Assembly: GCF_000194625.1 (NCBI RefSeq)
Contig: NC_015320.1
Span: 914,612-978,611 of the forward strand
DNA from: Archaeoglobus veneficus SNP6
GTDB taxonomy: Archaea > Halobacteriota > Archaeoglobi > Archaeoglobales > Archaeoglobaceae
DNA length: 64,000 nt
Reading direction: 5' to 3'
Shown: in pieces, positions 43,882-61,922 of the stretch
How positions within the stretch are numbered: the first letter of the stretch is position 1
How the letters are laid out: every line of letters begins with the position of its first letter
Notes under the pieces: model-generated
Databases searched by the model: none
Seen by the model: only the letters and a program-made list of their open reading frames with translations
What the model was told of the DNA's origin: nothing
Made by a program: the position numbers and the translations under genes

Positions 43882-44463
43882 GTGCGCTCCTGGGAGCTGT
43901 ACAGGCAGGAGAAACTCAGGAGGCTCGAGAATGCAGTAGAGAGGAGCGAAGTTGACGAGGATATTACAGCGCTCCTCACCACAATAAATGAAATTTCTGA
44001 ATACGTGACCCTATCGAGCTGCTCGGGCAGAATAGCAGTCATGGACATGCCGGAGTTTGGCAACAAACTTGAGGCAGTATTCCTCGGTAAGTGGCACCGC
44101 TGCGTTACAGTCGAGGAAGTGTCTAAAGCAGTTGAAAAGGGCAGGCTCACTACTTGGTTCATGGTTCATCCGCCAATAATTCACATTGCCTGCAGAAACC
44201 TGCGTTCGGCAGGCAGGCTGATGGAAGCTGCGAACAGAGCCGGCTTCAGGCGGTGTGGGCTTATATCACTCAGGAACAACGTCGTGGAGATAGCGTCTCT
44301 CGAAAGAATGGAGGTTCCCGTTGCTGTCAGGGGTAGAAAACTCGTTGACAGCTCCTCGCTTGAAATCATGGTCGAGATAGCAAACAGAAAGCTTGAAAGA
44401 GCGAAGGAGAAATTGAAAAGACTCGAAGAGGAAATCAAAAGACTCAATCGATTTCAGCCCTGA
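43882..44463 (+). CDS. taw3: Wybutosine-pathway tRNA-Phe methyltransferase Taw3
   Basis: A 193-residue SAM-dependent methyltransferase of the TYW3/Taw3 family acting on N4 of 4-demethylwyosine at position 37 of tRNA-Phe. The motifs T-L-S-S-C-S-G-R-I, L-G-K-W-H and W-F-M-V-H-P-P-I-I-H-I-A-C-R are diagnostic. It starts at GTG 43882, is divergent from purP across a 55-bp gap, and overlaps the end of sepS by 20 bp on the opposite strand. The C-terminus is a basic coiled coil. Confidence 0.93.
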   Translation: MRSWELYRQEKLRRLENAVERSEVDEDITALLTTINEISEYVTLSSCSGRIAVMDMPEFGNKLEAVFLGKWHRCVTVEEVSKAVEKGRLTTWFMVHPPIIHIACRNLRSAGRLMEAANRAGFRRCGLISLRNNVVEIASLERMEVPVAVRGRKLVDSSSLEIMVEIANRKLERAKEKLKRLEEEIKRLNRFQP

Positions 44464-46292: not shown

Positions 46293-46484
46293 TCAGTGGG
46301 TCGGCATGAACATCAGCATGAACAGAATGCCAAAGAGGATCAGGAACATGATTATCGTGAAGTTTCTCTGCTTTTTTCTCTCCTTCTCCATCTCTGCTCT
46401 GCAGTCATCACTGCAGAACGTCTTATCAGGCTCTATAGCCTTACCGCATACGATACAGTGGCGGTGAGGAATTATGCCGGGCAT
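46293..46484 (-). CDS. Small zinc-ribbon membrane protein (DUF2116-like)
   Basis: A 63-residue protein with a four-cysteine zinc ribbon (C-I-V-C-G-K ... F-C-S-D-D-C, residues 10-28), a charged linker and one C-terminal transmembrane helix rich in methionine (F-L-I-L-F-G-I-L-F-M-L-M-F). This matches the archaeal DUF2116 Zn-ribbon family. Function unknown; membrane anchoring of a nucleic-acid or protein-binding knuckle is plausible. It lies between tRNA-Gly and the Fwd locus. Confidence 0.82.
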   Translation of the reverse strand: MPGIIPHRHCIVCGKAIEPDKTFCSDDCRAEMEKERKKQRNFTIIMFLILFGILFMLMFMPTH

Positions 46485-46571
46485 GATAGCGGAAAGGTAA
46501 GCATTCTTTATAAGCTTTTGTGCTGGAGCTTCGGCGAAAAAATTAAATTATTTTTCATGACAGCACCTCCA

Positions 46572-47036
46572 ATGCCAAACCCCATGGAGATATACAAACT
46601 CCTGCCAAAAACCAACTGCAAGCAGTGTGGGGAGCAGACCTGCATGAGCTTCGCCTTCAAGCTCCTCACGAAGGAAAGAAAACTCGAGGAATGTAGACCC
46701 CTCTATGAGGCCAAGTATGAAGCGAGCAGAAAAAAGCTCGAGGAGATGCTCGCTGTTGTTGAAAAGGCAACTGAGACGGGTTTAATAGTTGATGAGACAA
46801 AGTGTGTTGGTTGCGCGAACTGTGTGGTTTCCTGCCCTGTCCACGTTGAAAAGGACCCCTATGGGGCGGCGATGGGGAAGGGTATCACGATAGACGAGCC
46901 AATTCTCAGGATAGAAGATGGAGTTGTTAAGGTGTTTAACCTGTCGCTCTGCAGGAGATACGGGAAACACCGTACCCTCTGCATCATTTGCAGGGAGAAC
47001 TGCCCCAGCGAGGCTATAAGCTTCCTGGAGGATTGA
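46572..47036 (+). CDS. Fe-S protein of the Fwd locus (FeS domain plus ferredoxin)
   Basis: A 154-residue protein: an N-terminal CODH-gamma-type Fe-S domain (N-C-K-Q-C-G-E-Q-T-C, Cys at about 16-25, with a further C after E-E), then a ferredoxin-like motif C-V-G-C-A-N-C-V-V-S-C-P and a second, irregular cysteine set (CRRYG...CIICRENCP). It leads the fwdB-fwdD unit and probably brings electrons to it. ATG 46572 has an AT-rich TATA-like tract (46537-46550) about 26 bp upstream; ATG 46557 in the same frame is an alternative. Confidence 0.82.
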   Translation: MPNPMEIYKLLPKTNCKQCGEQTCMSFAFKLLTKERKLEECRPLYEAKYEASRKKLEEMLAVVEKATETGLIVDETKCVGCANCVVSCPVHVEKDPYGAAMGKGITIDEPILRIEDGVVKVFNLSLCRRYGKHRTLCIICRENCPSEAISFLED

Positions 47037-47065
47037 CAATGGTTTTGGATTGACGGTGGTCTGAC

Positions 47066-48232
47066 ATGGTAGTATGTACTGGCTGTTCCTGTCTGTGCGA
47101 TGATATAGTCCTGCAAGATGGAAAAATTCTTCACACCTGCAGAAAGGGCGTCAAGCTCTTCAGAGCTGAAAGAAATACACCATTGATTGACTCGAAGCCA
47201 TCAGACATTGAGGAAGCGCTGAAGGCTGCAGGAGAAATTGTAAGCAATTCGGACAATTTGGTAATTTACGGCCTCGACACGATTCCCTGCGAGGCGCAGG
47301 AAAAAGCCATAGAACTCGCAAAGGAAAAGGGAGCTGCCATCGATGACTGTTCATCCTTCTGTCTCGGCGATCTGGTTGAACTCGTTCTCAAGGGCGAGTT
47401 GCCAACTGCTACACTCGACGAAGTCAGGGATAACGCATACGTGATTGTTTACTGGGGGGCGAATCCCCATCAGAGTCTACCAAGGCACATGTCTCGCTTT
47501 ACGTACTATCCGAGGAGCGGAAAGAGGCAGAGGGGCTATGAAGAAGACCGCTACCTCGTTGTGGTTGATGTGAGGCTTAGCGAAACCGCAAAGCTTGCAA
47601 GAAAGGGCGGGAAATTCATTATGGGCAGCGATGCTGACGTTATCGACTCGTTCCTCAAAGCCCTCGATGGAAAGGCTGGCAAACACCCAGAAGTTGCGGC
47701 TATCATAAAGGAGATGCAGAGGGCAGATTTCAACGTAATTTTTGGCGGGCTTGGGCTAAAGTATGGGCTTGGCGGTGATTACAGCAGGTTTATCGAGATG
47801 GTGGAGAGACTTAACGAGTTTACGAGAGTGGCTTTCATTCCCGCTGGCTTTCATGCAAACATGCGCGGTTTCAACGAGCTAATGTTCCGCAAAACCGGAG
47901 TCGTTAACGCCTATGATTTCTCGAGTAACGAAAGAGTGGCGTTCAGCGAAGCGATAATGAAGGCCGACGCAGCACTGATAATCGGCAGCGATCCTGTGAA
48001 ATCTCTCCCGTGGCACGTAGCAAAGCGGCTTGCAGAAATTGATACGATTCTTGTTGACCCATCGCCATCTCTTACGTCGAGAGTGGCGAAGGTCATCATT
48101 CCGACTGCGATTTCTGGTATAGATCAGGGAGGAACGATGGTAAGGAGCGATGGTGTTGCTGTAGAACTCCAGCCCTTTAAAGAGGGCCTGGAGGATGTTA
48201 GTGTTATATCTTCTTTAATGGAGGGCGTCTGA
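47066..48232 (+). CDS. Formylmethanofuran dehydrogenase subunit B, divergent paralogue
   Basis: Molybdopterin/tungstopterin-binding catalytic subunit family (FwdB/FmdB), reducing CO2 to formate inside the complex. An N-terminal [4Fe-4S] site (CTGCSCLC ... C, residues 4-25) and the pterin-dinucleotide domains are present; 388 residues. The metal-ligand region reads C-S-S-F-C-L-G-D (Cys 99) where the usual sequence is S-V-C-H-G-P, which the second paralogue (49387-50703) keeps. So this copy has an altered active-site loop. It is 29 bp after the Fe-S gene, and its stop overlaps the fwdD start. Confidence 0.88.
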   Translation: MVVCTGCSCLCDDIVLQDGKILHTCRKGVKLFRAERNTPLIDSKPSDIEEALKAAGEIVSNSDNLVIYGLDTIPCEAQEKAIELAKEKGAAIDDCSSFCLGDLVELVLKGELPTATLDEVRDNAYVIVYWGANPHQSLPRHMSRFTYYPRSGKRQRGYEEDRYLVVVDVRLSETAKLARKGGKFIMGSDADVIDSFLKALDGKAGKHPEVAAIIKEMQRADFNVIFGGLGLKYGLGGDYSRFIEMVERLNEFTRVAFIPAGFHANMRGFNELMFRKTGVVNAYDFSSNERVAFSEAIMKADAALIIGSDPVKSLPWHVAKRLAEIDTILVDPSPSLTSRVAKVIIPTAISGIDQGGTMVRSDGVAVELQPFKEGLEDVSVISSLMEGV

Positions 48233-48570
48233 TGCTCGAATTCAGCAAGTTTCTGCGGGTTGAGGCAAGTATCGTGGTTGCAAGGGATGTGCTTAATGAA
48301 GGAGAGGCTGTGGCTCTTGTCAGTAAAGAGTTTGCAGAGAAGATAGGGCTTAAAGACGGACAGGTGGTAAAGATTACGAAAGGTGACCGTTACGTCTGTC
48401 TCAAGGCAGTCATCTCGCAGTTTGCCGAAGGCGTCGATGTAGTCATCCCAAACGGCCTCTACGCGAGCCAGCTTGCAGATTTTCAGTCTTTCAAGCGCTT
48501 TAACGCCTCTGTCGAGCTTTCAGACGAAGCTGATACTGTGAACAGAATCCTCGAAAGAAGTTTGCGGTAA
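48232..48570 (+). CDS. fwdD: Formylmethanofuran dehydrogenase subunit D
   Basis: A 112-residue molybdopterin-dinucleotide-binding beta-barrel subunit (N-E-G-E-A-V-A-L-V-S, G-L-K-D-G-Q-V-V-K-I, V-V-I-P-N-G-L-Y-A-S-Q-L). It completes the pterin site of FwdB. Its ATG overlaps the stop of the divergent fwdB copy (TGATG), so the two are translationally coupled. The following 112-bp gap is AT-rich and carries the promoter of the next gene. Confidence 0.93.
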   Translation: MLEFSKFLRVEASIVVARDVLNEGEAVALVSKEFAEKIGLKDGQVVKITKGDRYVCLKAVISQFAEGVDVVIPNGLYASQLADFQSFKRFNASVELSDEADTVNRILERSLR

Positions 48571-48645: not shown

Positions 48646-48656
48646 AAAAGATTTAA
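48646..48656 (+). promoter_or_regulatory. TATA box of the CdhB-ferredoxin gene
   Basis: AAAGATTTAAG lies about 30 bp before GTG 48683. It gives the fusion gene its own promoter within the Fwd locus, and suggests a near-leaderless start at the GTG. Confidence 0.5.
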
Positions 48657-48682
48657 GAACTGTCACGAATGTTCATGACGAA

Positions 48683-49375
48683 GTGAGGAGGTACATCTTC
48701 CTGCCGAGGGGCTACAAGCAGTCGGAACTGCAATGTGAGAAGGCGGCATGTGTCACCCCAAAGGAGGCGGCGGATATCATCAGCTACTCCAGACCAGTTC
48801 TTATAACCGGTGGAATGCTGCTTGAAAACAGCAGACTTGTGGAGTACGCCGTAAAGCTGAGCGAGCACATGCCCGTTATTGCAACGGGGGCGTCGAGCAA
48901 AGTTCTCGTCAGTAGAGGCGTTAAACCGCTGTCGTGTGTCTTCACAATGCACCACATAGCACAGTTCATCCTCGATGGAGGGTGGGATGTTACAAAGAGA
49001 TTTGACACGGCGGTATTCCTCGGATTCAGACCGTACTACCTCTCCCGCGTACTCTCAACGCTAAAACACTTCTCCGGAATGACAACTATCAGCCTCGACG
49101 AACTGTACCAGCCCAACGCCCACTACAGCCTGACGACACTTGCCATAGTCATCGATGAGGATCGATGTTCTGGCTGTGGCGATTGTGTTGCCGCATGTAA
49201 AACGATGTCGAGAGGGGCCGCTCTCAGCGTTGTGCTCGGTAAACTCGTCGTCAGGCCAGAACTCTGCATTGCATGCGGTATGTGTGCTGAATTCTGCAGC
49301 AGAGATGCTATAGGGCTTGAGAGAGGAGAGCGGCTGTACTACAGAATGCTCGACGAAATTATCAGGTTATTATAG
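48683..49375 (+). CDS. CODH epsilon (CdhB-like) domain fused to a two-cluster ferredoxin
   Basis: A 230-residue fusion. Residues about 20-150 match the CdhB epsilon subunit: I-T-G-G-M-L-L-E, A-T-G-A-S-S, and F-L-G-F-R-P-Y-Y-L-S-R align directly with the true CdhB at 61356-61922. After residue 155 there are two [4Fe-4S] motifs: C162-x2-C165-x2-C168-x3-C172 and C195-x2-C198-x2-C201-x3-C205. CdhB binds nucleotide/flavin-like ligands and may steer electrons in CODH; here it is joined to its own ferredoxin and placed between fwdD and the second fwdB. The proposed role is an electron shuttle between CODH and formylmethanofuran dehydrogenase, an inference. GTG start behind a TATA box. Confidence 0.85.
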   Translation: MRRYIFLPRGYKQSELQCEKAACVTPKEAADIISYSRPVLITGGMLLENSRLVEYAVKLSEHMPVIATGASSKVLVSRGVKPLSCVFTMHHIAQFILDGGWDVTKRFDTAVFLGFRPYYLSRVLSTLKHFSGMTTISLDELYQPNAHYSLTTLAIVIDEDRCSGCGDCVAACKTMSRGAALSVVLGKLVVRPELCIACGMCAEFCSRDAIGLERGERLYYRMLDEIIRLL

Positions 49376-49386
49376 GAGGTGGTGGT

Positions 49387-50703
49387 TTGGGAAAAGAATT
49401 AACTGCGTCGTTCGGATTTGATAGCATGAGAGTTGAAGCCTTCGTCTGCCCCTTCTGCGGGGCACTCTGCGATGACATCATCGTTGAAACTGGTAACAAT
49501 GGCGATGTAAAAATTGAGAATGCGTGTGTTCTTGGCACTCGCAAAATAATGGCCAGAACACGCGGAAGGATAACGAAGCCGATGATTGGCGGAAAAGAAG
49601 TTTCAATAGATGAGGCAATTGAGAGAGCTGCCGAAATCCTCGTGAATGCAAAGAAACCTCTTCTCTACGGCTTCTCGTCAACAAGCTGTGAAGCTCACAG
49701 CGCTGGCATAGAGCTTGCGGAGCTTGTTGGCGGAGTCGTTGATTGCACATCCTCTGTCTGTCACGGCCCGACGATTTTAGCGATTCATGAGGTTGGCGTT
49801 CCGAGCGTTACACTTGGCGAGGTGAAAAACAGAGCAGATCTTATCATTTACTGGGGCTGCAATCCAATGCATGCACACCCGAGGCACATGTCCCGCTACT
49901 CCACGTTCCAGAAGGGGCGCTTCAGGAAGGGGAGAATCAGCAGGAAGGTTGTGGCTGTTGACGTCAGGCCGACGGAAAGCACGAAGCTTGCAGACGAGTT
50001 CATTCAGGTTGAGCCCAACCGCGATTTTGAAATTTTCAACGCGATGCGAGCGATACTGAACTCTGGAGATTGCAGAGGGGACGTAATCGGAGGTGTTCCG
50101 AAGGAGAAACTGAAGAAGCTTGTTGAAGAAATGAAGTCGTGTCAGTTTGGAGTAATTTTCTTCGGAATGGGGCTGACACACACGTATGGCAACTACCGAA
50201 ACGTCAGAGAAGCAATACTCCTCGTTAGAGACCTGAACATGTATACCAAGTTTGCAATAATCCCAATGAGGGGACACTACAACGTCACCGGCTTCAACGA
50301 AGTGTGCACGTGGCAGACTGGCTATCCGTACGCAGTGGATTTTACGAGGGATTATCCGTGGTATAACCCCGGCGAGACCGATGCGAACTCCCTCCTGATT
50401 GCCGAGGACGTCGATGCGATGCTCGTGATAGCTGCTGATCCTGCAGCCCACTTTCCGAAGCAGGCCGTGGAATATATGAAGCGGATACCACTGGTGGTAA
50501 TAGACCCGTTCGAAAGCCTGACGTCGAAGCTCGCCGATGTGGTAATTCCCGCTGCCATAGCAGGTGTGGAGGTCGAAGGTTCAGCGTACAGAATGGACGG
50601 CGTACCGCTCAGACTTAAAAAGGTGTTTGAACCTCCAGAAGGTGTGCTCAGCGATGAGGAGATTTTGAAGAGGATAATAAGCAAAGTTAAAGAATTTTTA
50701 TAA
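49387..50703 (+). CDS. fwdB: Formylmethanofuran dehydrogenase subunit B
   Basis: Catalytic tungsten/molybdenum-pterin subunit, 438 residues. N-terminal [4Fe-4S] ligands C21-P-F-C24-x3-C28 and C47; metal ligand Cys125 in S-V-C-H-G-P; Y-W-G-C-N-P and H-P-R-H-M-S-R pterin-contact motifs. The cysteine (not selenocysteine) form is encoded. TTG 49387 follows GGAGGT with 6-base spacing, 11 bp after the CdhB-ferredoxin stop, so the two are likely coupled. It converges with, and overlaps by 17 bp, fwdC on the minus strand. Confidence 0.95.
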   Translation: MGKELTASFGFDSMRVEAFVCPFCGALCDDIIVETGNNGDVKIENACVLGTRKIMARTRGRITKPMIGGKEVSIDEAIERAAEILVNAKKPLLYGFSSTSCEAHSAGIELAELVGGVVDCTSSVCHGPTILAIHEVGVPSVTLGEVKNRADLIIYWGCNPMHAHPRHMSRYSTFQKGRFRKGRISRKVVAVDVRPTESTKLADEFIQVEPNRDFEIFNAMRAILNSGDCRGDVIGGVPKEKLKKLVEEMKSCQFGVIFFGMGLTHTYGNYRNVREAILLVRDLNMYTKFAIIPMRGHYNVTGFNEVCTWQTGYPYAVDFTRDYPWYNPGETDANSLLIAEDVDAMLVIAADPAAHFPKQAVEYMKRIPLVVIDPFESLTSKLADVVIPAAIAGVEVEGSAYRMDGVPLRLKKVFEPPEGVLSDEEILKRIISKVKEFL

Positions 50704-51445
50704 ATATTTTCCCATTGCTCTTTTTCTCCGCCTTATCTCCTGTAAACACCGCGTATTTCACGCCGTTTATTTCCTCTTCGCCCTCGTAGATAAATCCAGG
50801 AGGCAGGACTTCGTCGATATCCTTTGCTTCATCGAGAAATATCTGCCCGTTTATCATTCCTGCACCGACCCTTCTCCCTGTTTTTGCCCTTATTACTCCT
50901 CCTGTCATGCCTGCCCCGAGGAATGCTCCTGCCTCTCTGCCAACAATCAACTCTCCACCGCACATGTTCGCTCCCGCCTCATCACCGCATCGCCCTTCAA
51001 TAATCAGTCTTCCCCCTGCCATTCCTGTGCTACCTCTGTAAGCAGCGCCAGCGTAGTCTCCACAATCGCCTTTCACTACCACTTCCCCACCAATCATGCC
51101 TATGGCTGCAAATCGTCCAGCATTGCCCTCGATGACTATTCTGCCACCCCGCATAAACGCTCCAACGTACATGCCTGCATTGCCCTTCACGATGATTTCT
51201 CCCTCTCTCATGCCGAAACCTATGCGTTTCACTCTTGTCAAATCTCCCTCGAAAACGAGCGTACCGTTTACTTTTCCCTCGATGTCGAAAAATTCTCCTG
51301 CATCGACGAGCAGCTTTCCGTACTGGATCTTAACGTTCTCGATTTCTCTCGCATTCATGCCGGAGAGCTTTTCCGGGAGAAGCGCATCAACCTCGATGCA
51401 CAGATCCGGCTTATCTTTCAGCCTGAGCACGCACACGTTTTGCAT
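50687..51445 (-). CDS. fwdC: Formylmethanofuran dehydrogenase subunit C
   Basis: A 252-residue beta-helix protein with glycine-rich repeats (G-D-C-G-D-Y-A-G-A, G-R-C-G-D-E-A-G-A-N-M, G-R-E-A-G-A-F-L-G-A-G-M) homologous to the glutamate synthase alpha C-terminal domain. FwdC bridges FwdA and FwdB in the known complex. ATG 51445 follows GGAGGTAG. It is last in the minus-strand operon, 17 bp after fwdA. Confidence 0.95.
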   Translation of the reverse strand: MQNVCVLRLKDKPDLCIEVDALLPEKLSGMNAREIENVKIQYGKLLVDAGEFFDIEGKVNGTLVFEGDLTRVKRIGFGMREGEIIVKGNAGMYVGAFMRGGRIVIEGNAGRFAAIGMIGGEVVVKGDCGDYAGAAYRGSTGMAGGRLIIEGRCGDEAGANMCGGELIVGREAGAFLGAGMTGGVIRAKTGRRVGAGMINGQIFLDEAKDIDEVLPPGFIYEGEEEINGVKYAVFTGDKAEKKSNGKIFIKIL

Positions 51446-51462: not shown

Positions 51463-53124
51463 CTATGCACACACGCATTCGGCCCTTCTTAATTCGTCAC
51501 TTTCGACGATAAAGTTCTGCATCGACACACTGTAGTTTTCGGCGAAATACCTTCTTAACTCTCTCTCAATCCACTTCTCGTAGTCTGTCTTCACCCAGTA
51601 TGTTCTGCCGTACGTCGAATTCACAACCTCGCCATCTCTAACAACGATTTCTCCATCCTTTATTGTCAGGTACGATGATGAAAATGCCTTTTCTATGATT
51701 CTGTAGTCTGACGAATTCACTTCAAGCGGATTGATGTCGTAAACAGCGATGTCCGCCACCGCCCCCACACCGAGGTGTCCCCTGTCAAGCATACCTGTGG
51801 CTTTCGCCTGATTGCTCCTCGTTACCATGGCTATCTCGTAGAAATCGTATTCCCTGTCTATGGCTCCGAGCATGGTTCTGCTCTCGACAGCTCTGTTAAC
51901 TTTTGCCATCTCCTTTTCCCTGTACTTTCTGCTCATGAGCATGGCTATAACTTTCGGATACGCCGTAAAGGGTGCGCCATTTGGATGGTCTGTTGTTAGC
52001 ATGACTTTCTCCGTATCCACCAGTAGAGCAAGTTCGAGGCCTATGGCCCACTGCACGGCGTTAACCGCAGAACGAGGACTGTAGGTTACTGGCGTGACAC
52101 CGGGAGCAGTTTCAGCTTCGACATCCTTGTTCATCCACTTTCTGCCTGTGAGCAACTGCAAATGAAATTCCATTGGTCCGTCTGCAGTCATCGTGGTTGT
52201 ATCGCCGAACATGATGTTGCCTGTGTCAATGGTAACGCTGTGCCTGTCAACGTACTTTGCAATTTCATCGCTCCTCGACTCGAAATCCCTCCACGAGTCC
52301 CCACCATAGCTGTGGAACTGCACGTGTGTCAGGTGTAAAAGCTGCCTATCGCCGGCCTCCATCCTGCCAGCAATTTTGATTGTTTGAAGGGTTGTTTCGT
52401 AATTTCCAGGCATACCGAGGTTGTTACAGTGGAGATGGACTGAATGAGGCAGATTCAGATCCTCACAGACTCTCATAATACAGCATATTATCTCCCTCGG
52501 CGTAACCTCGAAGAGAGGAACTGGATCATCCAGACAGGCTATCTCCCTCCTCCATCCCCACGCTTCAGTCCCGCCCGGGTTTACGAGCTTGATTGCGTAC
52601 CCCTTCGTTGCCTCAAGCAGCCATGCGACGTAGTTTTTCAGCATCTCGATGTCTCCCTCTGCTATGCAGTCCATGACGAACCAGTTACCATCTAAAAGAG
52701 GAAACGCAGCTTTGTCGAGGATTGGCAGCTCGTTAAGTTCGTGATGCGTGTGTCTTGCAAACAGTGGCGGCATCGCAGGTGTTATGACAGTTGTGTATCC
52801 CATTCTGGCGTACTCGTAGCCCGTCAGGAAGATGCTTGGAACGGAGTATCCGCTCCCACTCCTCAACCCGTTGTTTTTTGGAAATACCTTCCTCAGGCTA
52901 TCCTCTGGCCTGAGCATCCTTCCCGCATTCTCCTTCCCTCCAGCCACATGCGAATGGATGTCGAAGCCACCGGGCATAACGAGTTTGTTGCTGACGTCGA
53001 TTACCTTTGCTCCAAACCAGATTCTGTCAACTATTCTTCCATCTTTAATGTATATGTCCATTTTTTCTCCGTTTATTCCATTGATGGGGTCATAAACTAT
53101 TCCGTTCTTTAAGACTAACTTCAT
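51463..53124 (-). CDS. fwdA: Formylmethanofuran dehydrogenase subunit A
   Basis: Amidohydrolase-type subunit, 553 residues, which condenses formate with methanofuran at a binuclear zinc site. Metal ligands G-F-D-I-H-S-H-V-A, the V-H-L-H-C-N-N segment and L-T-T-D-H-P-N-G are intact. ATG 53124 follows GGAGGTGG and overlaps the end of the hdrA gene by 35 bp, so the Hdr and Fwd subunits share one mRNA. Confidence 0.96.
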   Translation of the reverse strand: MKLVLKNGIVYDPINGINGEKMDIYIKDGRIVDRIWFGAKVIDVSNKLVMPGGFDIHSHVAGGKENAGRMLRPEDSLRKVFPKNNGLRSGSGYSVPSIFLTGYEYARMGYTTVITPAMPPLFARHTHHELNELPILDKAAFPLLDGNWFVMDCIAEGDIEMLKNYVAWLLEATKGYAIKLVNPGGTEAWGWRREIACLDDPVPLFEVTPREIICCIMRVCEDLNLPHSVHLHCNNLGMPGNYETTLQTIKIAGRMEAGDRQLLHLTHVQFHSYGGDSWRDFESRSDEIAKYVDRHSVTIDTGNIMFGDTTTMTADGPMEFHLQLLTGRKWMNKDVEAETAPGVTPVTYSPRSAVNAVQWAIGLELALLVDTEKVMLTTDHPNGAPFTAYPKVIAMLMSRKYREKEMAKVNRAVESRTMLGAIDREYDFYEIAMVTRSNQAKATGMLDRGHLGVGAVADIAVYDINPLEVNSSDYRIIEKAFSSSYLTIKDGEIVVRDGEVVNSTYGRTYWVKTDYEKWIERELRRYFAENYSVSMQNFIVESDELRRAECVCA

Positions 53125-55471
53125 TCTCCACCTCCTGGCTCATTCGGACGAGATTTCTGATTTCATCGTCGATGTCGGGCAGAGACTTCAGCTTCTCAAC
53201 AAAATCGGTCACAACTTTCGCGAACTTCTCACCCTCGCTGGCAGAAATCCAGGTTAGGAGCAGCCTCTCCTTCCTGACACCGAACTGCTCCATCAGCGCC
53301 TGCAGCTTTTCCATCCTGCGCTTGGCCTTGTAATTTCCGGTCATGTAGTGGCAGTCGCCAAGGTGGCAGCCTGCAACGATTACACCATCTGCCCCACTCA
53401 GAAACGCCTTGATGACGAAGACGGGATCGACCCTTGCAGAACACATGACCCTGATAGCCTTCACATTTACGGGATACTTTAGCCTCGCAAGTCCTGCCGC
53501 ATCCGCTCCAGCATAACTGCACCAGTTGCACAGGAATGCGAGAACTCTCGGCTTCTCATCATCGAAATCGAAGGCTTCGCTAACTTGGGCAAGTATCTGC
53601 ACATCGGTGAAACAACCTATCTGCATAGCATTCGTGGGGCATGCAGCAGCACAGGCTCCGCAGCCGGTGCAGTTGGGCTTCACGTACGCCTTGCCCCATG
53701 CCATATCTATTGCATTAAAGTCGCACACCTCCTTACAGAGATTGCACCCGAAGCAAAGCTCTGGAATAACGTAGGCAGTGATGGGATCGATTTCGAGCTT
53801 TCTCTTCGCCATAAGGGCTGCAGCTCTGCTCGCAGCAGCACTTGCCTGCGCGACAGTCGATGGAATGTCCTTGGGCGAATGGGCACAGCCAGCAATGAAT
53901 ATGCCTGATATCGGAGCTTCGACTGGTCTGAGCTTGGCGTGAGCTTCCATAAGAAATCCGTCTTTATCTGCTGGAATTGCAAGCATCTGCCTTAGTTTAT
54001 CATTTTCGGCTGGAATAATGGCTGGAGCGAGCACTACCATATCAAACTCGTATTCCAATGGTTTCCCGAGAAGCGTGTCTTCTGCAACTACCCTTAGCTT
54101 CCCATCCTCCTCATAAATCCTTGCTGGTCTCCCCCTCACGAAGTTAACCCCAGAATCCCTCGCTTTCCAGTAGAACTCTTCGTATCCCTTGCCAACGGCT
54201 CTTATATCCATGTAGAACACGTAAACTTCAGTTTCAGGGTTCTTCTCCTTGATCTGCATTGTGTGCTTCAGCGTGTACATGCAGCAAATTCCGGAACAGT
54301 ATTTCTTCGCCCTCTCGCTTCTGCTGCCAACGCACTGGATGAATGCGATTCTTTTTGGCTCCTTCCCATCGGATAACCTTATAATCTTACCACCCGTAGG
54401 CCCGGCGGCGTTTACGAGCCTTTCGAACTCGAGGGAAGTAATCACATCTTTAAACCTTCCATAGCCGTATTCAGACAGCTTCTTCACGTCATAAAGCTCG
54501 TATCCCGTGGCGACTATTATTGTTCCAACATCAATCTCCACGATTTTGTCCTGCTGGAAGAAGTCGATGGCGCTTGCAGAACAAACATCGCTGCACATCC
54601 CGCAGCCGAGGCAATGCTCGGCATCGATCGTGTATTGCAACGGCACGGCCTGCGGAAATGGAATGTATATGGCTTTCCGGTTCGCGAGCCCCATCTCAAA
54701 CTCGTTTGGAACTTCGACGGGGCATAGCGTTGCACATACACCACAGCCCGTACATGCATCGGTGACGAACCTTGCCTTCTTTCTTATTTTGACCTTGAAG
54801 TTTCCGACGTATCCGCTTACCTCCTCAACTTCGGAGTAAGTAAACACGTGAATGCGCTCGTGTCTCCACGCCTCAACCATCTTCGGGCCGAGGATGCAGA
54901 TTGAGCAATCCATTGTCGGGAAGGTTTTGTCGAGCATTGCCATGTGACCGCCTATGCTTGGTTGTTTTTCAACAAGGTAAACTTCGAAACCCTGCTCAGC
55001 AAGATCAAGAGATGCCTGAATACCTGCAACACCTCCACCTATCACGAGAACCTTCGGCGTTATCTCTATCTGTATCTTCTCGAGGGGCTTGAGGTGTTTT
55101 GCCTTTGCAACAGCCATCCTCACAAGGGCCTTTGCCTTCTGCGTAGCTTCTCCTGCTGTGTGTACCCACGAGCACTGCTCTCTGATGTTTGCAACCTCGA
55201 GCATGTACGGGTTGATACCCGCCTCCTCTATCGTCTTCCTGAAGAGCTGTTCGTGCATTCTCGGACTGCAGGCAGCGATAACAACTGCATCGAGGTTGTA
55301 CTCTTTTATTGCGTTTGCAACCTCCTGCTGGCCAGAACTTGAGCAGAGATACCTGTCATCCTTCGCAATGACGACATTATCGAGGCTCGAAGCGTAGCTG
55401 ACAACCTCGTCAATATCAACGACGCCGGCTATGTTTCTCCCACAGTGGCAGACGAAAACTCCGATCCTCAT
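53090..55471 (-). CDS. hdrA: HdrA-MvhD fusion (flavin-based electron bifurcation subunit)
   Basis: Electron-bifurcating subunit, 793 residues. Order: N-terminal V-C-H-C-G-R-N segment; FAD site V-I-G-G-G-V-A-G-I-Q (about residue 147); ferredoxin motifs CTGCGVCATLC and CLGCGMCSDVC; after the flavin domain, CFGCNLCKEVC and CTGCGACAAAC; then a fused MvhD domain (CNWCSYA...CSARVD...GCHLGDCHY). MvhD is a separate subunit in hydrogenotrophic methanogens. The gene overlaps the FrhB-like gene by 4 bp upstream and fwdA by 35 bp downstream. It works with HdrC and HdrB encoded divergently at 57552-58800. Confidence 0.95.
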   Translation of the reverse strand: MRIGVFVCHCGRNIAGVVDIDEVVSYASSLDNVVIAKDDRYLCSSSGQQEVANAIKEYNLDAVVIAACSPRMHEQLFRKTIEEAGINPYMLEVANIREQCSWVHTAGEATQKAKALVRMAVAKAKHLKPLEKIQIEITPKVLVIGGGVAGIQASLDLAEQGFEVYLVEKQPSIGGHMAMLDKTFPTMDCSICILGPKMVEAWRHERIHVFTYSEVEEVSGYVGNFKVKIRKKARFVTDACTGCGVCATLCPVEVPNEFEMGLANRKAIYIPFPQAVPLQYTIDAEHCLGCGMCSDVCSASAIDFFQQDKIVEIDVGTIIVATGYELYDVKKLSEYGYGRFKDVITSLEFERLVNAAGPTGGKIIRLSDGKEPKRIAFIQCVGSRSERAKKYCSGICCMYTLKHTMQIKEKNPETEVYVFYMDIRAVGKGYEEFYWKARDSGVNFVRGRPARIYEEDGKLRVVAEDTLLGKPLEYEFDMVVLAPAIIPAENDKLRQMLAIPADKDGFLMEAHAKLRPVEAPISGIFIAGCAHSPKDIPSTVAQASAAASRAAALMAKRKLEIDPITAYVIPELCFGCNLCKEVCDFNAIDMAWGKAYVKPNCTGCGACAAACPTNAMQIGCFTDVQILAQVSEAFDFDDEKPRVLAFLCNWCSYAGADAAGLARLKYPVNVKAIRVMCSARVDPVFVIKAFLSGADGVIVAGCHLGDCHYMTGNYKAKRRMEKLQALMEQFGVRKERLLLTWISASEGEKFAKVVTDFVEKLKSLPDIDDEIRNLVRMSQEVENEVSLKERNSL

Positions 55472-56685
55472 GCCTTGCCCCTCTTCCTCTTTGCCATACT
55501 CACAACCTTCTCAACATCGCACCTCCCCATCTGGATGTATCCCTTCGAAATCGCTCCGCTGACGATTTTCTCGCCGATTTCAGTCCTCACGATTATAGTT
55601 CTCCAGCCCTTCGGAGAACCGGTGTTTCCGAAGGAAACGTCAGCATGTTCAGCTGTCAGATCTTCGCACTCCCTGCAGGCAACTGCATCTTTTTCCGGAT
55701 GGTTACCCCGGGGACAGAACACACCGAAAATGAGCTTTATCTCGTCACATCCGAGCTTCTGCATCTTTCTCGCAGCGGTGACATGGCAGGGAACGCCAAC
55801 GACTGCTATCTTCCTGAAGCCCCTCTTCACGGCATCTTTTAGCAGGGCAAGGGTTGGCGCAACAGCGAACTTTATTCCTGCTGCTTTCGTAAGCTCGTGT
55901 GGTTTTGTCGCGATGAAAGGCTTCTTTCCGACGACTATTGCACAGTCGATTAATTCAGCTTCCATAGCGTAAATCAGTAAAGACGTTGCCGCTCCACTTC
56001 CTGCAGCAACGGCGTCTATTCTGGTACTCTTTGCCGAAAGAATCTGCCTGTAAGGCCCGATGTCTCCTTCACTTTCTAAGGTAAAGAAATCTGTCTTGGG
56101 GCACTTCAGCAGGCATGAGGCGCAGTTCTTGCATTCGTCAACAAGGTGAGGATAACCGTCCATTTCCAGTGCATCTTCTGGACAGGACGCGATGCATGCT
56201 CCGCACAGCGAGCAGAGCTTTTTGTCTATTACCAGGTCTTTTAGCAGGGGAAAGATACTTCCTGCTTTCTCGAACCTCTTAATGAGCTCAGGGATGTCCA
56301 CGTTAAAGCCGTCTGCCTCGAAGACACGCCTGAGAAGGCCTGTAGAGAACCACTCCGAGAAGTAGTCAGGGTACGATGACCCGACTCTTGTGACTTTCTT
56401 CGTCTTCTCTGCCTTCCCCGGACTACCTCCGGTATTGACTTCTACTTCGTTCCCGCTGGCGGAAAGGGATACATACTTCTCGAAGCTCTTGAAGCCAGGG
56501 AGTTTAAGCTCCAGTGCGTTAAAGGGACATGCAGAGATGCACACTCCGCACCCCTCGCATCTGATGTCTGGCTTTAGCCTGCCCCCCACTATCCTGAGAA
56601 CGCCCGACGGAACGTTAAGGGGGCATGCAACCGCACAATTGCCGCAGCCCGTGCATCTTTCCTCGTAATATATGAGCTCAATCAA
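55468..56685 (-). CDS. F420-type FrhB/FdhB-like flavoprotein with four ferredoxin motifs
   Basis: A 405-residue iron-sulfur flavoprotein. N-terminal motifs CTGCGNCAVAC, CEGCGVCISAC, CSLCGACIASC and CKNCASCLLKC, then the FrhB/FdhB/FpoF F420-binding core (S-G-A-A-T-S-L-L, V-G-V-P-C-H-V-T-A, F-C-P-R-G-N...C-R-E-C-E-D, F-G-N-T-G). F420-linked enzymes of this family exchange hydride with F420. No hydrogenase or formate dehydrogenase catalytic subunit is beside it, so F420H2 itself is probably the electron partner for HdrA-MvhD. It overlaps its neighbours by 4 bp on both sides. Confidence 0.88.
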   Translation of the reverse strand: MIELIYYEERCTGCGNCAVACPLNVPSGVLRIVGGRLKPDIRCEGCGVCISACPFNALELKLPGFKSFEKYVSLSASGNEVEVNTGGSPGKAEKTKKVTRVGSSYPDYFSEWFSTGLLRRVFEADGFNVDIPELIKRFEKAGSIFPLLKDLVIDKKLCSLCGACIASCPEDALEMDGYPHLVDECKNCASCLLKCPKTDFFTLESEGDIGPYRQILSAKSTRIDAVAAGSGAATSLLIYAMEAELIDCAIVVGKKPFIATKPHELTKAAGIKFAVAPTLALLKDAVKRGFRKIAVVGVPCHVTAARKMQKLGCDEIKLIFGVFCPRGNHPEKDAVACRECEDLTAEHADVSFGNTGSPKGWRTIIVRTEIGEKIVSGAISKGYIQMGRCDVEKVVSMAKRKRGKA

Positions 56686-57446
56686 GAGTTTTCACCTCGA
56701 ACGAGCTTTTTAAAAGCTATTTCGTGCTGGAGACTCCAGGCAGTCCTTCTAACGGCTTCAATTCTCACGTCTGTCCTGACAACCTCTATGGCATTTGTCG
56801 GACAGGCATTGCTGCACGCCCCACAGTAAATGCACCTGTCTTCGTCAATTTCCACCGATTTGCTTGGGTCCTGGAGGGATATTGCCATAGAAGGACATAT
56901 CTCGCAGCAGACTCCACAACCCTGACAGGCATCATCGTTAACGATTACACTGCCCGAAAACGGCTTTTCGACGTATATTGCCTCCTCCGGGCAAGCTTTG
57001 CTGCAAGCACCACAGTAAATGCACAGTTCGTCGTCCCTCATCCTTCCGCCGAGCATTATTGCATTTCTCGGGCACGAATCTTTACAGACAGTACACTGCG
57101 GTGGACATTTGTTCAGATCAGCGAGAAATATTGCTCGATACTTGGGGCTGTACAGTCTGGTGGGTTTATCACCAGCATACACGTTTATGGCGTTAAGAAG
57201 ACAGACCTCGCTGCATATCCCGCAGAGAATGCATGTTTCAGCATCTATTACCACGGGTGGATACCCGAGCTTTACCGATGCGGGTGGGTTGAGTTTTATT
57301 GCATTTTTCGGGCAGGCAGTGCTGCACAACTCGCAGCCAACACATCTCTGGACATTGTAAACGAGAACTCTCTTGCCCACACCTTCCCTAATTATTTTAT
57401 ACAGACCGCCATCAAAGGATGCGTGGACCCTTAAATTCATCATCAT
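56682..57446 (-). CDS. Polyferredoxin with six 4Fe-4S motifs (FwdF/G-like)
   Basis: A 254-residue electron carrier. Motifs: CVGCELCSTAC, CILCGICSEVC, CPPQCTVCKDSC (irregular), CIYCGACSKAC, CQGCGVCCEIC and CIYCGACSNAC. It leads the minus-strand Hdr-Fwd operon and overlaps the FrhB-like gene by 4 bp, which suits a wire between HdrA and Fwd. Three tandem ATGs (57446, 57443, 57440) are possible; a TATA box (57471-57480) centred 26 bp upstream favours 57446, leaderless. The frame continues to 57518, but that lies before the promoter. Confidence 0.9.
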   Translation of the reverse strand: MMMNLRVHASFDGGLYKIIREGVGKRVLVYNVQRCVGCELCSTACPKNAIKLNPPASVKLGYPPVVIDAETCILCGICSEVCLLNAINVYAGDKPTRLYSPKYRAIFLADLNKCPPQCTVCKDSCPRNAIMLGGRMRDDELCIYCGACSKACPEEAIYVEKPFSGSVIVNDDACQGCGVCCEICPSMAISLQDPSKSVEIDEDRCIYCGACSNACPTNAIEVVRTDVRIEAVRRTAWSLQHEIAFKKLVRGENS

Positions 57447-57470
57447 CAAGCATGTGGAATCGTGTCCAGT

Positions 57471-57480
57471 ATTTAATTTT
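57471..57480 (-). promoter_or_regulatory. TATA box of the minus-strand Hdr-Fwd operon
   Basis: AAAATTAAAT on the minus strand about 26 bp before ATG 57446. It shares the 105-bp divergent intergenic region with hdrC. Confidence 0.55.
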
Positions 57481-57506
57481 TGCCACGACGTATGTCGAAT
57501 TTTGGA

Positions 57507-57552
57507 TTTTAGTAACAAAAATTGCTACAATTCATATCTATTGTCACTAAAA
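57507..57552. promoter_or_regulatory. Inverted-repeat operator between divergent hdr units
   Basis: TTTTAGTAACAA (57507-57518) and TTGTCACTAAAA (57541-57552) match in 11 of 12 positions as an inverted repeat flanking a possible hdrC TATA-like sequence (about 57530-57540). The right arm touches the hdrC ATG. The same core, TTTTAGT/ACTAAAA, recurs as a perfect palindrome before cdhA (58806-58819), hinting at one regulator for Hdr-Fwd and CODH. Confidence 0.45.
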
Positions 57553-58016
57553 TGATAGATAGTGTTAAATTACGCAGCACGGTTCGGCGCTGCATGGGTA
57601 CCTGCTACCAGTGCGGGACGTGCACGGCTGACTGTCCGGTTGCGAGACATGCAGAGTTCAATCCAAGGAAGCTGATGCTCGAACCGGATGGAAAACTTAG
57701 CTGGCTTTGTGCAACGTGTTTCAAGTGCTACAGGTGTCCGAAAGATGTCAAGCCGTACGAAGTGCTGGCGGAATTCAGGAGCAGAGATGTAAAGGAAGGA
57801 AGCTACCCGGCGTACGTTCGAGCTTTCGTTGACGTTGTGAAAAACTACGGTGAGCTGGATGAAGCAGCCCTCTTTATGAGGTTACTGAGATCCGGGAAGA
57901 TTATGGACATCTCGCTAATCCTTGCTGCCCTCAGGATGAGACGGGTGTCACTGCCTGTAAAATCCGAATGCGCCAGCGAGGTTAGGCGAATATTCGAGGT
58001 GGTTGGGAATGCGTAA
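57552..58016 (+). CDS. hdrC: CoB-CoM heterodisulfide reductase-type subunit C
   Basis: A 154-residue Fe-S protein with two clusters (C-Y-Q-C-G-T-C-T-A-D-C, about residues 19-29, and C-A-T-C-F-K-C-Y-R-C, about residues 53-62) and the helical HdrC tail. It passes electrons from HdrA to HdrB. ATG 57552 is used; the frame open to 57522 crosses the operator. It is transcribed divergently from the polyferredoxin-FrhB-HdrA-Fwd operon and overlaps hdrB by 8 bp. Whether the disulfide is CoM-CoB is unclear, since no methyl-CoM reductase is seen. Confidence 0.94.
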   Translation: MIDSVKLRSTVRRCMGTCYQCGTCTADCPVARHAEFNPRKLMLEPDGKLSWLCATCFKCYRCPKDVKPYEVLAEFRSRDVKEGSYPAYVRAFVDVVKNYGELDEAALFMRLLRSGKIMDISLILAALRMRRVSLPVKSECASEVRRIFEVVGNA

Positions 58017-58800
58017 GTTTGCTTATTTTCCGGGGTGTTCGTCGAAGCAGAGTGCTGTAGAATACGATCTGTCGGCAAGGGTTGTGGCTGAAAAACTCGG
58101 AATTGAACTTGTTGACTTCAATGCCAACTGCTGCGGCACACACGTAATCGAGGAGTACAGTAAAGACATCTGGTTAGCTCTGAATGCGAGAAATCTCGCA
58201 ATAGCCGAATCTCTTGGTCTTGACGTGCTTACTCTGTGCCCGGCGTGCTACCTCAACATGAAGAAGGCGAACTCAATGCTCAATACAGAGCTTGAGAGAA
58301 TAAACAGCATTTTGGCGAAAATTGGGAGAAGTTATTGTGGAAAAACGAATGTTTTTCACATAATTGAGGCTGTAGTCGAAGCGAAGCCAGAAAAAGATGT
58401 TAAATTCGAACCCAGCATGAGAGTTGCGCCCTACTATGGATGCCAGCTTCTCCGCCCGCCAGAGATATCTGGCATCGACGACCCCGAGAATCCCTCAATT
58501 TTCGAGGAATTGCTCGAAGGCATCGGCTATCATGTTGTGGACTTTCCTGCAAAGACAGATTGCTGTGGTGCAACACTGTTACTTCAAAATTCGGCCATCC
58601 ACCGATCCATGTCTCTTGAAATAATCAGAAAGGCAAAAAAAGCTGGGGCAGAATGCATCGCGACACTCTGCCCGCTGTGCCAGTTCTCTCTTGAAGTTGT
58701 GCAGACAAAAACGGTTGTGCCTGTATATCCTTTCACCCGGCTCGTTGGGGCATCTATAGGCGTGGAGGGATTCAATGTACACGTTTTTAAAAATTTGTAA
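58009..58800 (+). CDS. hdrB: CoB-CoM heterodisulfide reductase-type subunit B
   Basis: Catalytic subunit, 263 residues, with two CCG domains that bind the noncubane [4Fe-4S] clusters used to cleave the heterodisulfide: first F-P-G-C...N-C-C-G-T-H...C-P-A-C, second Y-Y-G-C...D-C-C-G-A...C-P-L-C. Both are complete, so a thiol-disulfide reductase is expected. ATG 58009 follows GAGGTGG and overlaps the hdrC stop. The cdh operon starts 157 bp downstream on the same strand. Confidence 0.95.
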   Translation: MRKFAYFPGCSSKQSAVEYDLSARVVAEKLGIELVDFNANCCGTHVIEEYSKDIWLALNARNLAIAESLGLDVLTLCPACYLNMKKANSMLNTELERINSILAKIGRSYCGKTNVFHIIEAVVEAKPEKDVKFEPSMRVAPYYGCQLLRPPEISGIDDPENPSIFEELLEGIGYHVVDFPAKTDCCGATLLLQNSAIHRSMSLEIIRKAKKAGAECIATLCPLCQFSLEVVQTKTVVPVYPFTRLVGASIGVEGFNVHVFKNL

Positions 58801-58957: not shown

Positions 58958-61351
58958 ATGGATCTCGAACTCAGAGAAGGTATATTCGTACTGGATGAGA
59001 TGAGGAATGTAAGCATAAAAATCGGCAGGATTATTGATGAAGAGGAGGAGAAAGAGAAGGAGTGGGAGCCCCTTGGTCCCACACCAAAACCCCACATTCT
59101 CGACTTAAGGCACTGGGATCGCAGACTACTCGAGCGCTACGAGCCAATTTACGCACCGATGCAGGATTTCTGTAACCTTTGCACAATGGGGCCGTGTGAG
59201 CTTTCGCAGAACAAGGAGGGTGCTTGTGGAATCGATTTGAAGACCCAGAAAGCGAGGCTTGTAACCCTTGCGTGCCTCATAGGTGCTTCATCCCACACAG
59301 CACACGCCAGACACCTCGTCCACTACCTCATCGAGAAGTTTGGTCATGATTATCCAATCGATCTTGGGGGCGATATAAACGTCGAGGCACCGAACATCAG
59401 GCTTGTATTCGGAATCAAGCCCAAGAAACTGGGTGACCTCGAAAAAGTTCTCGACTATGTGGAACAGGACCTTGTCAGAATTCTTCATACGACGCATACT
59501 GGACAAGAAGAAGACCACCTCGACTACGAGTCAAAAGCAATGCATGTGGGCATGCTTGACCACGTTGCCATGGAAGTTGCAGACATCGCACAGGTTGTAG
59601 CATTCAACTATCCTCTCGGCGACCCCAATGCGCCGTTAATTGACATCGGCTTTGGTGTGCTTGAGACAGAAAAACCGGTAATTCTCGTCATAGGACACAA
59701 CATTCTTCCTGCGAGGAACATAGATGATTATCTGAGGGAGCACGGACTCGAGGATGAGGTTGAAATCGCTGGCCTGTGCTGTACAGCCATCGACACGACT
59801 CGCTACGACCCCAAGGCCAAGATAGTTGGAACGCTGAGCTACGAACTGAGAGCGATAAGGTCAGGCATTCCCGATGTGGTTGTTACAGACGAGCAGTGTA
59901 TAAGAGCAGACACCCTTCGTGAATGCTCCAAGCTCGGAATTCCTGTCATAGCATCATCGGAAGCCGCAGCAAGAGGTCTACCTGACAGAACTCACGAAAA
60001 CCCCGACGTAATAGTCAACGACCTCGTGAGTGGGAGAGCGAAGGGTGTGCTGATTCGCGATCCGGACAAGGTTGGCGAGATAGCCGTCAGAGTTGCCATG
60101 GAGATCAGAAAGAAGAAGGGTAAGAAGCCGCCCTTCATGAGCGAAGAGGAGCTAAAAACCGAGATTGACAGATGTACGGGCTGTATGAACTGTGTTTTTG
60201 CCTGTCCACACAATTTAAGGATTGACAAGGCGATGAGTGCTGCGAAAGATGGAGATTTCAGCGTGTTTAAGACTGTCGAGGATTCATGCATTGCATGCGG
60301 GCGATGCGAGCAGGTTTGTCCGAGGGACATCAGGATAGTTGACGTTATCATGAAGGCGAGCTACGACAGCCTTGTAAGAAAGACTGGCAAGATGAGAGCT
60401 GGAAGAGGTCCAATTCAGGACACTGAAATCAGAAACGTTGGTCAGCCAATAGTTATGGGAACGATTCCGGGAATAATTGCTCCAATAGGCTGTCCCAACT
60501 ATCCAAAAGCGAGAAACGAAATTGTGGAGATAATCGAGGAATTCCTCAAACGCAAGTTCATTGTTGTCTCATCTGGCTGTCACGCAATGGATTTAGGTAT
60601 GTACAGAGACGAGGATGGTAAGAGCCTCTACGAAAAGTATCCGGGAGCTTTCGACGCTGGCTGTCTGACAAACGTTGGTAGCTGTGTTGCAAACAGCCAC
60701 ATAAGCGGAGCAGCGATAAAAGTTGCCAACATCTTTGCCATGCGCCCGCTGCGTGCAAACTATGCAGAGATAGCAGACTACATTCTCAACAGAGTTGGAG
60801 CCGTCGGCCTTGCATGGGGGCCGTACAGTCAGAAGGCTGCGAGCATCGCAACAGGTTTCAACCGCCTTGGCGTTCCTGCAGTTGTTGGGCCTCATGCTGC
60901 CAAGTACCGCAGGGCTTTCATAGGTAAAGTCTGGAAGAAGGAGGACTGGTGGGTTTACGACATAAAGTCGAAACAGCGCATGTACGTCGAGCCGTGCCCA
61001 GATGCGCTGCTCGTTGTGGCGGAAACGAAAGAGGAGGCAATCGTACAGCTTGCGAGACTCTGCATAAGACCTGCAGACACGTACATGGGCAGACAGATCA
61101 AGCTGACTCACTACATAGAACTCAGCAAGAAGTACCTTGGCTGCCTGCCGGATGACTGGCACCTCTACGTGAGGACAGAAGCAGACCTGCCGCTGAAGAT
61201 GAAGGACGAACTTCTCAAGATACTCGAAGAAGAGCACGGATGGAAGATAGACTGGAGCAAGAAGAAGATTCTCGAAGGACCAATAAGGCCGTACGACTCC
61301 GGATTTAATCCGACGATACTTGAAGAAGTCTTCGAAAAGTACGCGAGGTGA
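58958..61351 (+). CDS. cdhA: CODH/ACS alpha subunit (carbon monoxide dehydrogenase)
   Basis: Ni-Fe-S carbon monoxide dehydrogenase of the acetyl-CoA decarbonylase/synthase complex, 797 residues. The D/B-cluster cysteines (C-N-L-C-T-M-G-P-C-E-L, about residue 69), two ferredoxin motifs (CTGCMNCVFAC and CIACGRCEQVC, about residues 405-455) and the C-cluster region residues (S-S-G-C-H-A-M-D, G-S-C-V-A-N-S-H) are present. The strong GGAGGGG site fixes ATG 58958. It oxidises CO or reduces CO2 and opens the cdhABC-cooC operon. Confidence 0.97.
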   Translation: MDLELREGIFVLDEMRNVSIKIGRIIDEEEEKEKEWEPLGPTPKPHILDLRHWDRRLLERYEPIYAPMQDFCNLCTMGPCELSQNKEGACGIDLKTQKARLVTLACLIGASSHTAHARHLVHYLIEKFGHDYPIDLGGDINVEAPNIRLVFGIKPKKLGDLEKVLDYVEQDLVRILHTTHTGQEEDHLDYESKAMHVGMLDHVAMEVADIAQVVAFNYPLGDPNAPLIDIGFGVLETEKPVILVIGHNILPARNIDDYLREHGLEDEVEIAGLCCTAIDTTRYDPKAKIVGTLSYELRAIRSGIPDVVVTDEQCIRADTLRECSKLGIPVIASSEAAARGLPDRTHENPDVIVNDLVSGRAKGVLIRDPDKVGEIAVRVAMEIRKKKGKKPPFMSEEELKTEIDRCTGCMNCVFACPHNLRIDKAMSAAKDGDFSVFKTVEDSCIACGRCEQVCPRDIRIVDVIMKASYDSLVRKTGKMRAGRGPIQDTEIRNVGQPIVMGTIPGIIAPIGCPNYPKARNEIVEIIEEFLKRKFIVVSSGCHAMDLGMYRDEDGKSLYEKYPGAFDAGCLTNVGSCVANSHISGAAIKVANIFAMRPLRANYAEIADYILNRVGAVGLAWGPYSQKAASIATGFNRLGVPAVVGPHAAKYRRAFIGKVWKKEDWWVYDIKSKQRMYVEPCPDALLVVAETKEEAIVQLARLCIRPADTYMGRQIKLTHYIELSKKYLGCLPDDWHLYVRTEADLPLKMKDELLKILEEEHGWKIDWSKKKILEGPIRPYDSGFNPTILEEVFEKYAR

Positions 61352-61355
61352 TCGC

Positions 61356-61922
61356 ATGGCCGAAGCAAAAAAGAAGGTTAGGAAGCCTCCTGAAAAGCTG
61401 TTCAACACGGCCGACATTCAGGCCAGCAGATCGGCGAAGCTGATCAAGCCAGATGTACTTGCAAAAATGGTCGGCAGGGCAAAGAACCCTGTACTGGTTA
61501 CGGGAGGAAAGTTACTTGAGGACGAAAAGCTCGTTGAATATGCGGTAAAACTATACGAGAACGGTGTTGCTATTATCGCAACGGGAGCATCGAGCAGGCC
61601 CTTAATCGAGAGGGGTGTTGAGCCGCAGGCGTGTGTTTTCACCCTGCATCACGTTACCCAGTTCTTGCTCGACGAAAGCTGGAGTGGTTTTAAGGGCGAG
61701 CCGTACGACCTCGTTCTTTTCCTCGGATTCGAGCCGTACTACCTCTCCAGAATGCTGTCTGCTTTGAAACACTTTTCCAAGCTGACAACGGTTAGTATAG
61801 ACGCATTCTATCAGCCACACGCAAGGTTCAGCTTCCCGAACACCCTTGATCTGCATCACGAGATTCTTGAGGAGTTTGTTACTGCCCTTGGAGGTGGCAG
61901 CGTTGGAAAGAAGGAAGATTGA
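61356..61922 (+). CDS. cdhB: CODH/ACS epsilon subunit
   Basis: A 188-residue subunit that binds CdhA and is thought to help electron flow to FAD or ferredoxin. V-T-G-G-K-L-L-E, A-T-G-A-S-S-R-P and F-L-G-F-E-P-Y-Y-L-S-R-M are typical. ATG 61356 follows GAGGTGATC; the upstream extension to 61320 lies within cdhA. It overlaps cdhC by 20 bp. It is the plain version of the domain in the ferredoxin fusion at 48683. Confidence 0.96.
   Translation: MAEAKKKVRKPPEKLFNTADIQASRSAKLIKPDVLAKMVGRAKNPVLVTGGKLLEDEKLVEYAVKLYENGVAIIATGASSRPLIERGVEPQACVFTLHHVTQFLLDESWSGFKGEPYDLVLFLGFEPYYLSRMLSALKHFSKLTTVSIDAFYQPHARFSFPNTLDLHHEILEEFVTALGGGSVGKKED

Follow-up and report, generated by a model that had tools for sequence, protein, structure and literature searches.

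The locus

The window analysed here is a stretch of 64,000 nt from the genome of Archaeoglobus veneficus, which consists of a single contig of 1,901,943 bases. At 48683..49375 (+ strand) it carries a gene for a protein of 230 amino acids (~25.5 kDa), hereafter called the fusion, in which a CdhB-type epsilon subunit of CO dehydrogenase (CODH), the enzyme converting CO and CO2 into each other, contains an inserted 2[4Fe-4S] ferredoxin. The gene is read in one frame from a GTG start codon at 48683 to a stop codon ending at 49375, and is followed on the same strand, after 11 nt, by fwdB(2), encoding subunit B of a formylmethanofuran dehydrogenase (49387..50703, +). Facing this pair on the opposite strand are fwdC(2) (50687..51445, -) and fwdA(2) (51463..53124, -), both assigned by profile match, then an hdrA-like gene (53090..55471, -), which has homologues in the same gene order and is named by sequence resemblance, a gene for an F420-reductase subunit that resembles FrhB and has four ferredoxin motifs (55468..56685, -), and a gene for a FwdF-like polyferredoxin (56682..57518, -), whose best NCBIfam match is FwdF at a score below the cut-off. 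Further on lie an hdrC-like gene (57522..58016, +; Fer4 match and synteny), an hdrB-like gene with two CCG domains (58003..58800, +), cdhA (58958..61351, +), which encodes the only CdhA found in the A. veneficus genome, the ordinary cdhB for epsilon (61356..61922, +), which is intact, and cdhC (61846..63408, +; profile match).

A first-pass annotation of this DNA had placed the fusion gene between fwdD and fwdB. Its linkage to the fwdB at 49387 is genuine, as detailed below, but the fwdD in question (48232-48570) belongs to another, paralogous set made up of a FeS/ferredoxin protein, fwdB' and fwdD' (46374..48570, +). The same set is found directly upstream of cdhA in the congener G019 and in genus g11, and represents an older CODH-Fwd gene linkage that is independent of the fusion.

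A ferredoxin within the epsilon fold

The CdhB-like domain and the two complete CxxCxxCxxxC motifs recognised at first reading both withstood closer analysis. Residues 18-153 match the cdhB model TIGR00315, as do all 12 copies of the fusion that we found (see below), here with 109.6 bits (cut-off 101.2), and PF02552 is matched with 87 bits; the CdhB-type motifs ITGGMLLE, ATGASS and FLGFRPYYLSR are all present, and the two cysteine motifs begin at residues 162 and 195. The Rossmann-like epsilon core (residues 1-149; 48683..49129, +) keeps 39 of the 53 columns conserved among the CdhBs of non-carriers, 37 of the 53 being retained in at least 11 of the 12 copies, and the eight cluster cysteines are invariant in every carrier genome (n = 12). 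No FrhB domain was detected in the protein by domain search, the FrhB-like subunit being encoded by a separate gene. An N-terminal motif, IP..S..QC, which includes an invariant cysteine at residue 18 (48734-48736), occurs in all 12 copies and is absent from the aligned CdhBs.

The first-pass annotation described an epsilon domain fused to a ferredoxin. The two do reside in one protein, but the ferredoxin, 65 residues long with two clusters (49130..49324, +), is inserted within the fold where CdhB has a 6-residue loop, and is followed by a retained C-terminal epsilon helix (residues 215-230, GERLYYRMLDEIIRLL; 49325..49372, +). Residues 215-229 of this helix (GERLYYRMLDEIIRL) match the helix with which CdhB ends (e.g. 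NKELYYRMLDEVVNG). When scored with a position-specific matrix built from 13 CdhB tails, the last helix ranked first among 18,632 background windows with 18.4 bits; its counterparts in the other copies reached 6.5-21.9 bits, those of genus g12 being weaker. Correspondingly, the YQPxAxxS strand is separated from the last helix by 6 residues in CdhB versus 65 in A. veneficus and g12 or 68 in g11. An AlphaFold2 model reached a pLDDT of 77.6 and a pTM of 0.77 from an input alignment of only 12 sequences, and the top eight PDB matches returned for it by Foldseek are epsilon subunits, among them 3cf4_G with a TM-score of 0.85 by target and an alignment spanning the entire query. Since the tail matrix, the loop lengths and the AlphaFold2 and Foldseek results agree, the ferredoxin is, judging from sequence and predicted structure, set into an epsilon fold that is itself complete, after its last strand and ahead of its C-terminal helix. 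An end-to-end fusion was dropped in favour of internal insertion, given the persistence of the CdhB helix after the ferredoxin. An analogous case is provided by CdhA itself, in which an insert that separates two Rossmann folds holds the E and F clusters (PMC11474084).

A frameshift, two genes split by a sequencing error, or chance were ruled out as origins of this architecture: it recurs in a single frame in 11 further genomes, with all eight cysteines unchanged. We also asked whether the insert is particularly similar to FwdF, which it resembles most among solved structures. The likeness is weak, multi-repeat polyferredoxins gain from summed scores, and the fusion, scoring 34.7 bits where the cut-off is 375, falls outside the FwdF family profile.

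Distribution and gene neighbourhood

A family profile search of 394 Halobacteriota genomes returned 12 full-length copies of the fusion at 371-425 bits, followed by plain CdhBs with no more than 215 bits. The carriers, most of which are drafts in many contigs, are the A. veneficus genome, all six genomes of g12 and all five of g11, i.e. heat-loving archaea of three Archaeoglobaceae genera. The recurrence in Archaeoglobales that the first-pass annotation proposed to look for was thus found, and since only 12 of the 59 genomes of the class carry the fusion, it is not a ubiquitous known variant. Nor is it a genus-wide trait, being absent from the congeners G018 and G019. A wider scan of genome contigs with short seeds yielded L009 as the sole true fusion. 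The 12 fusion epsilon domains form one clade in the tree (support 99/96), by which a single origin is shown at the sequence level. The dN/dS ratios of the fusion, 0.037-0.071, indicate that the whole protein is under strong purifying selection. No description of an epsilon-ferredoxin protein was found in the open-licence literature searched, and on these genomic data the fusion is a real CdhB variant that is undescribed in that literature.

The usual context of CdhB is directly after cdhA, although this is no strict criterion; the fusion gene lies before fwdB in seven genomes and elsewhere in g11. In the seven (A. veneficus and g12) the same fwdB is found immediately 3' on the same strand, at a distance of 11-101 nt, and the outer neighbours of the pair vary, e.g. 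HerA plus DUF555, a P-type ATPase or CGI-121. The g11 copies lie by themselves, with SRP54 and TYW3 nearby and fwdB elsewhere. TYW3 also occurs in the window (43882-44463), 4.2 kb upstream of the fusion gene, and in g11 it adjoins that gene; its proximity in both is possibly a trace of an older common location.

The genes from fwdC to hdrB are arranged in the same order in g11 (L116-L118), and partly so in G040 and G044. Among the 59 class genomes, the FrhB-like subunit is present in exactly the 12 that carry the fusion, a coincidence of which relatedness leaves only 2-3 independent contrasts. The fusion and the Fwd-Hdr-FrhB module lie on different contigs in several carriers, and are unlinked in g11 and G040. 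In the loci read, no fwdG-type gene adjoins Fwd(2).

Loss of the ordinary cdhB in carriers

Of the 12 carriers, 5 have either a deletion of the ordinary cdhB or a broken copy of it, versus none of the approximately 40 non-carriers with a readable locus (Fisher test, 0.0003, ignoring relatedness). On the CdhA tree, these losses require four changes, or three if a shared deletion is counted as one event. In G039, G040 and G043, cdhC comes directly after cdhA on one contig, with no room for cdhB, which excludes contig ends as the cause, and the fusion is the sole epsilon-like protein found in these genomes, of which G040 is 99% complete. Because the three share their cdhA-cdhC intergenic sequence, comparison of the loci suggests a single deletion event. 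In G041, cdhB is reduced to a short remnant, and in G036, which belongs to another genus, to a 99-residue remnant with a damaged glycine motif, the dN/dS of which (0.217) may be inflated by a tail that is possibly out of frame. Four of the five g11 genomes keep the ordinary gene, and the surviving cdhB of g12, like that of G035, evolves fast. In the cdhB-less genomes, cdhA and the cluster cysteines of CdhA are intact. Contig ends were accepted as explaining a missing cdhB in the non-carriers G007 and G021, and probably in G049.

Two further observations concern neighbouring genes. G040, G039 and G043 (L125, L126 and L127) keep a lone fwdD1, whose fwdB-fwdA-fwdC partners are gone in the loci read; therefore, the only FwdB found there is the one linked to the fusion. 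G020 contains a second cdhA copy with six in-frame stop codons (C71:5803-8142), beside an intact cdhB.

A model for the role of the fusion

The explanation that we favour, and consider reasonably probable, is that the fusion acts as an alternative epsilon of CODH that brings a ferredoxin of its own, takes over from CdhB and wires the enzyme to the Fwd-Hdr-F420 module. The first half of this proposal, the epsilon role, is well supported by the genomics: because cdhB decays only where the fusion is present, the fusion probably takes the epsilon position on CdhA. The second half we infer from the restriction of the fusion to genomes that also possess the Fwd-Hdr-F420 module, which suggests that the two enzymes are wired together. 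The adaptor between CODH and Fwd postulated in the first-pass annotation fits both the fwdB linkage and the co-occurrence with Fwd-Hdr-FrhB, with the refinement that the protein would probably occupy the place of epsilon itself. Several points speak against our explanation: the g11 gene is not beside fwdB, four of the five g11 genomes retain cdhB, the co-occurrence with the module comes down to 2-3 independent contrasts, most carriers are drafts, and the loss of cdhB could reflect a dispensable epsilon instead of a replaced one.

Mechanistically, we propose that the fusion would sit in CdhB's place on CdhA, with the inserted ferredoxin near the surface F cluster of CdhA, by analogy roughly in the region to which zeta brings its ferredoxin domain in the CODH of Ca. 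Ethanoperedens. From there it would pass electrons, with no need of free ferredoxin, between CODH and a hub of FwdF-like polyferredoxin, HdrABC, the FrhB-like subunit and Fwd(2), such that a single electron supply or outlet, linked to F420 and heterodisulfide, would serve both CO2-converting enzymes. That the ferredoxin-carrying epsilon physically joins CODH to this module, placing both enzymes on one bifurcating hub without recourse to free ferredoxin, is a more tentative proposition, which we hold possible and rather short of probable. The presence in A. veneficus of one CdhA and two epsilon proteins suggests that free-ferredoxin and wired forms of the enzyme may be interchangeable. A. veneficus reportedly retains cdhAB and fails to grow with CO (PMC4543118), which makes a role of the fusion in biosynthesis or in a shared hub as likely as one in CO oxidation.

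The fusion could also replace epsilon and do nothing more, its ferredoxin serving as an extra electron port of CODH with no physical joint to Fwd, and its linkage to fwdB reflecting co-regulation of two CO2 steps. The decay of cdhB in carriers and the remoteness of the g11 copies from fwdB speak for this possibility, and the pairing with fwdB in seven genomes despite changing outer neighbours, together with the exact co-occurrence with the Fwd-Hdr-FrhB module, speaks against it. We regard it as unlikely. Less probable still is that the fusion is a subunit of Fwd, its ferredoxin being the FwdG- or FwdF-type part of Fwd(2) and its epsilon fold a docking domain that does not bind CdhA, with CODH working without epsilon. 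Linkage to fwdB, the lack of an adjoining fwdG-type gene in the loci read and the resemblance of the insert to FwdF are in keeping with it. Against it stand the 37 of 53 conserved CdhB positions preserved in at least 11 copies and the restriction of cdhB loss to carriers of the fusion, and the ranks of FwdF may be inflated by its many repeats. Finally, a decoy or regulator of CdhA, the other role offered in the first-pass annotation, would share the conserved CdhB core as the fusion does, but is very improbable: all eight cluster cysteines are strongly constrained, dN/dS is 0.04-0.07 across the protein and five carriers have lost the genuine cdhB, which together point to a working subunit.

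Comparison with known systems

With CdhB of archaeal CODH/ACS (TIGR00315; 3CF4, 1YTL, 9C0Q) the fusion has its fold, conserved motifs and C-terminal helix in common, and it differs by the dicluster ferredoxin of 65-68 residues before the last helix, by the N-terminal motif described above and by its gene position, beside fwdB or alone, whereas cdhB lies between cdhA and cdhC. A precedent is zeta of the Ca. Ethanoperedens CODH (8RIU), the ferredoxin domain of which docks at the intersection of alpha and epsilon by the peripheral cluster of alpha and delivers electrons to an F420 reductase. The Fwd of the same organism carries a parallel subunit, FwdI, and it is by zeta and FwdI that CODH and Fwd are connected to F420 (PMC11493965). 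Both zeta and the fusion thus put a 2[4Fe-4S] ferredoxin on the alpha-epsilon unit in an F420-linked rewiring, but zeta forms a chain of its own, which includes an F420-reductase domain and joins an epsilon of the ordinary kind, whereas here the ferredoxin is inside epsilon and the FrhB-like protein is encoded separately. The electron-carrying Fwd subunits FwdI and FwdF/FwdG (5T5I, 7BKB) likewise connect FwdB with an external redox partner by ferredoxin modules, and they have no epsilon domain.

How archaeal CODH/ACS and Fwd gain or shed electrons of very low potential is a central question of the acetyl-CoA pathway. A ferredoxin-bearing epsilon that travels with a Fwd-Hdr-F420 module would represent a second, independent rewiring of CODH beside the zeta of ethane oxidisers, and would open the question of channelling between the two CO2 enzymes to direct tests. 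Genomes with cdhA and without cdhB are in addition natural tests of the need for epsilon, and so bear on its function. We know of no CODH component reported in the methanogen Hdr-Fwd supercomplex. That assembly (7BKB) links Fwd, polyferredoxin and Hdr parts, as does the module here, and in Methanosarcina Hdr, ACDS and Mer are reported to associate (PMC4169405).

Upstream region of the fusion gene

The first-pass annotation credited the gene with its own TATA box. A TATA-like box, TTTAAG, does lie at -31 to -26 of the GTG codon (48652..48657, +), and by eye A/T-rich boxes are found approximately 25-38 nt upstream of the fusion in A. veneficus and its six g12 relatives; since they are similarly placed, a promoter of its own is plausible for the gene, short of proof. 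Between box and start codon lies an operator-like palindrome, TCACGAATGTTCATGA (48663..48678, +). No regulon was found, as the pattern has a single match in the A. veneficus genome, the one before the fusion. Matching elements precede the fusion gene in G040, G043 and G044, and a degenerate one in G039; a palindrome shared between genera at this position makes a dedicated regulator possible.
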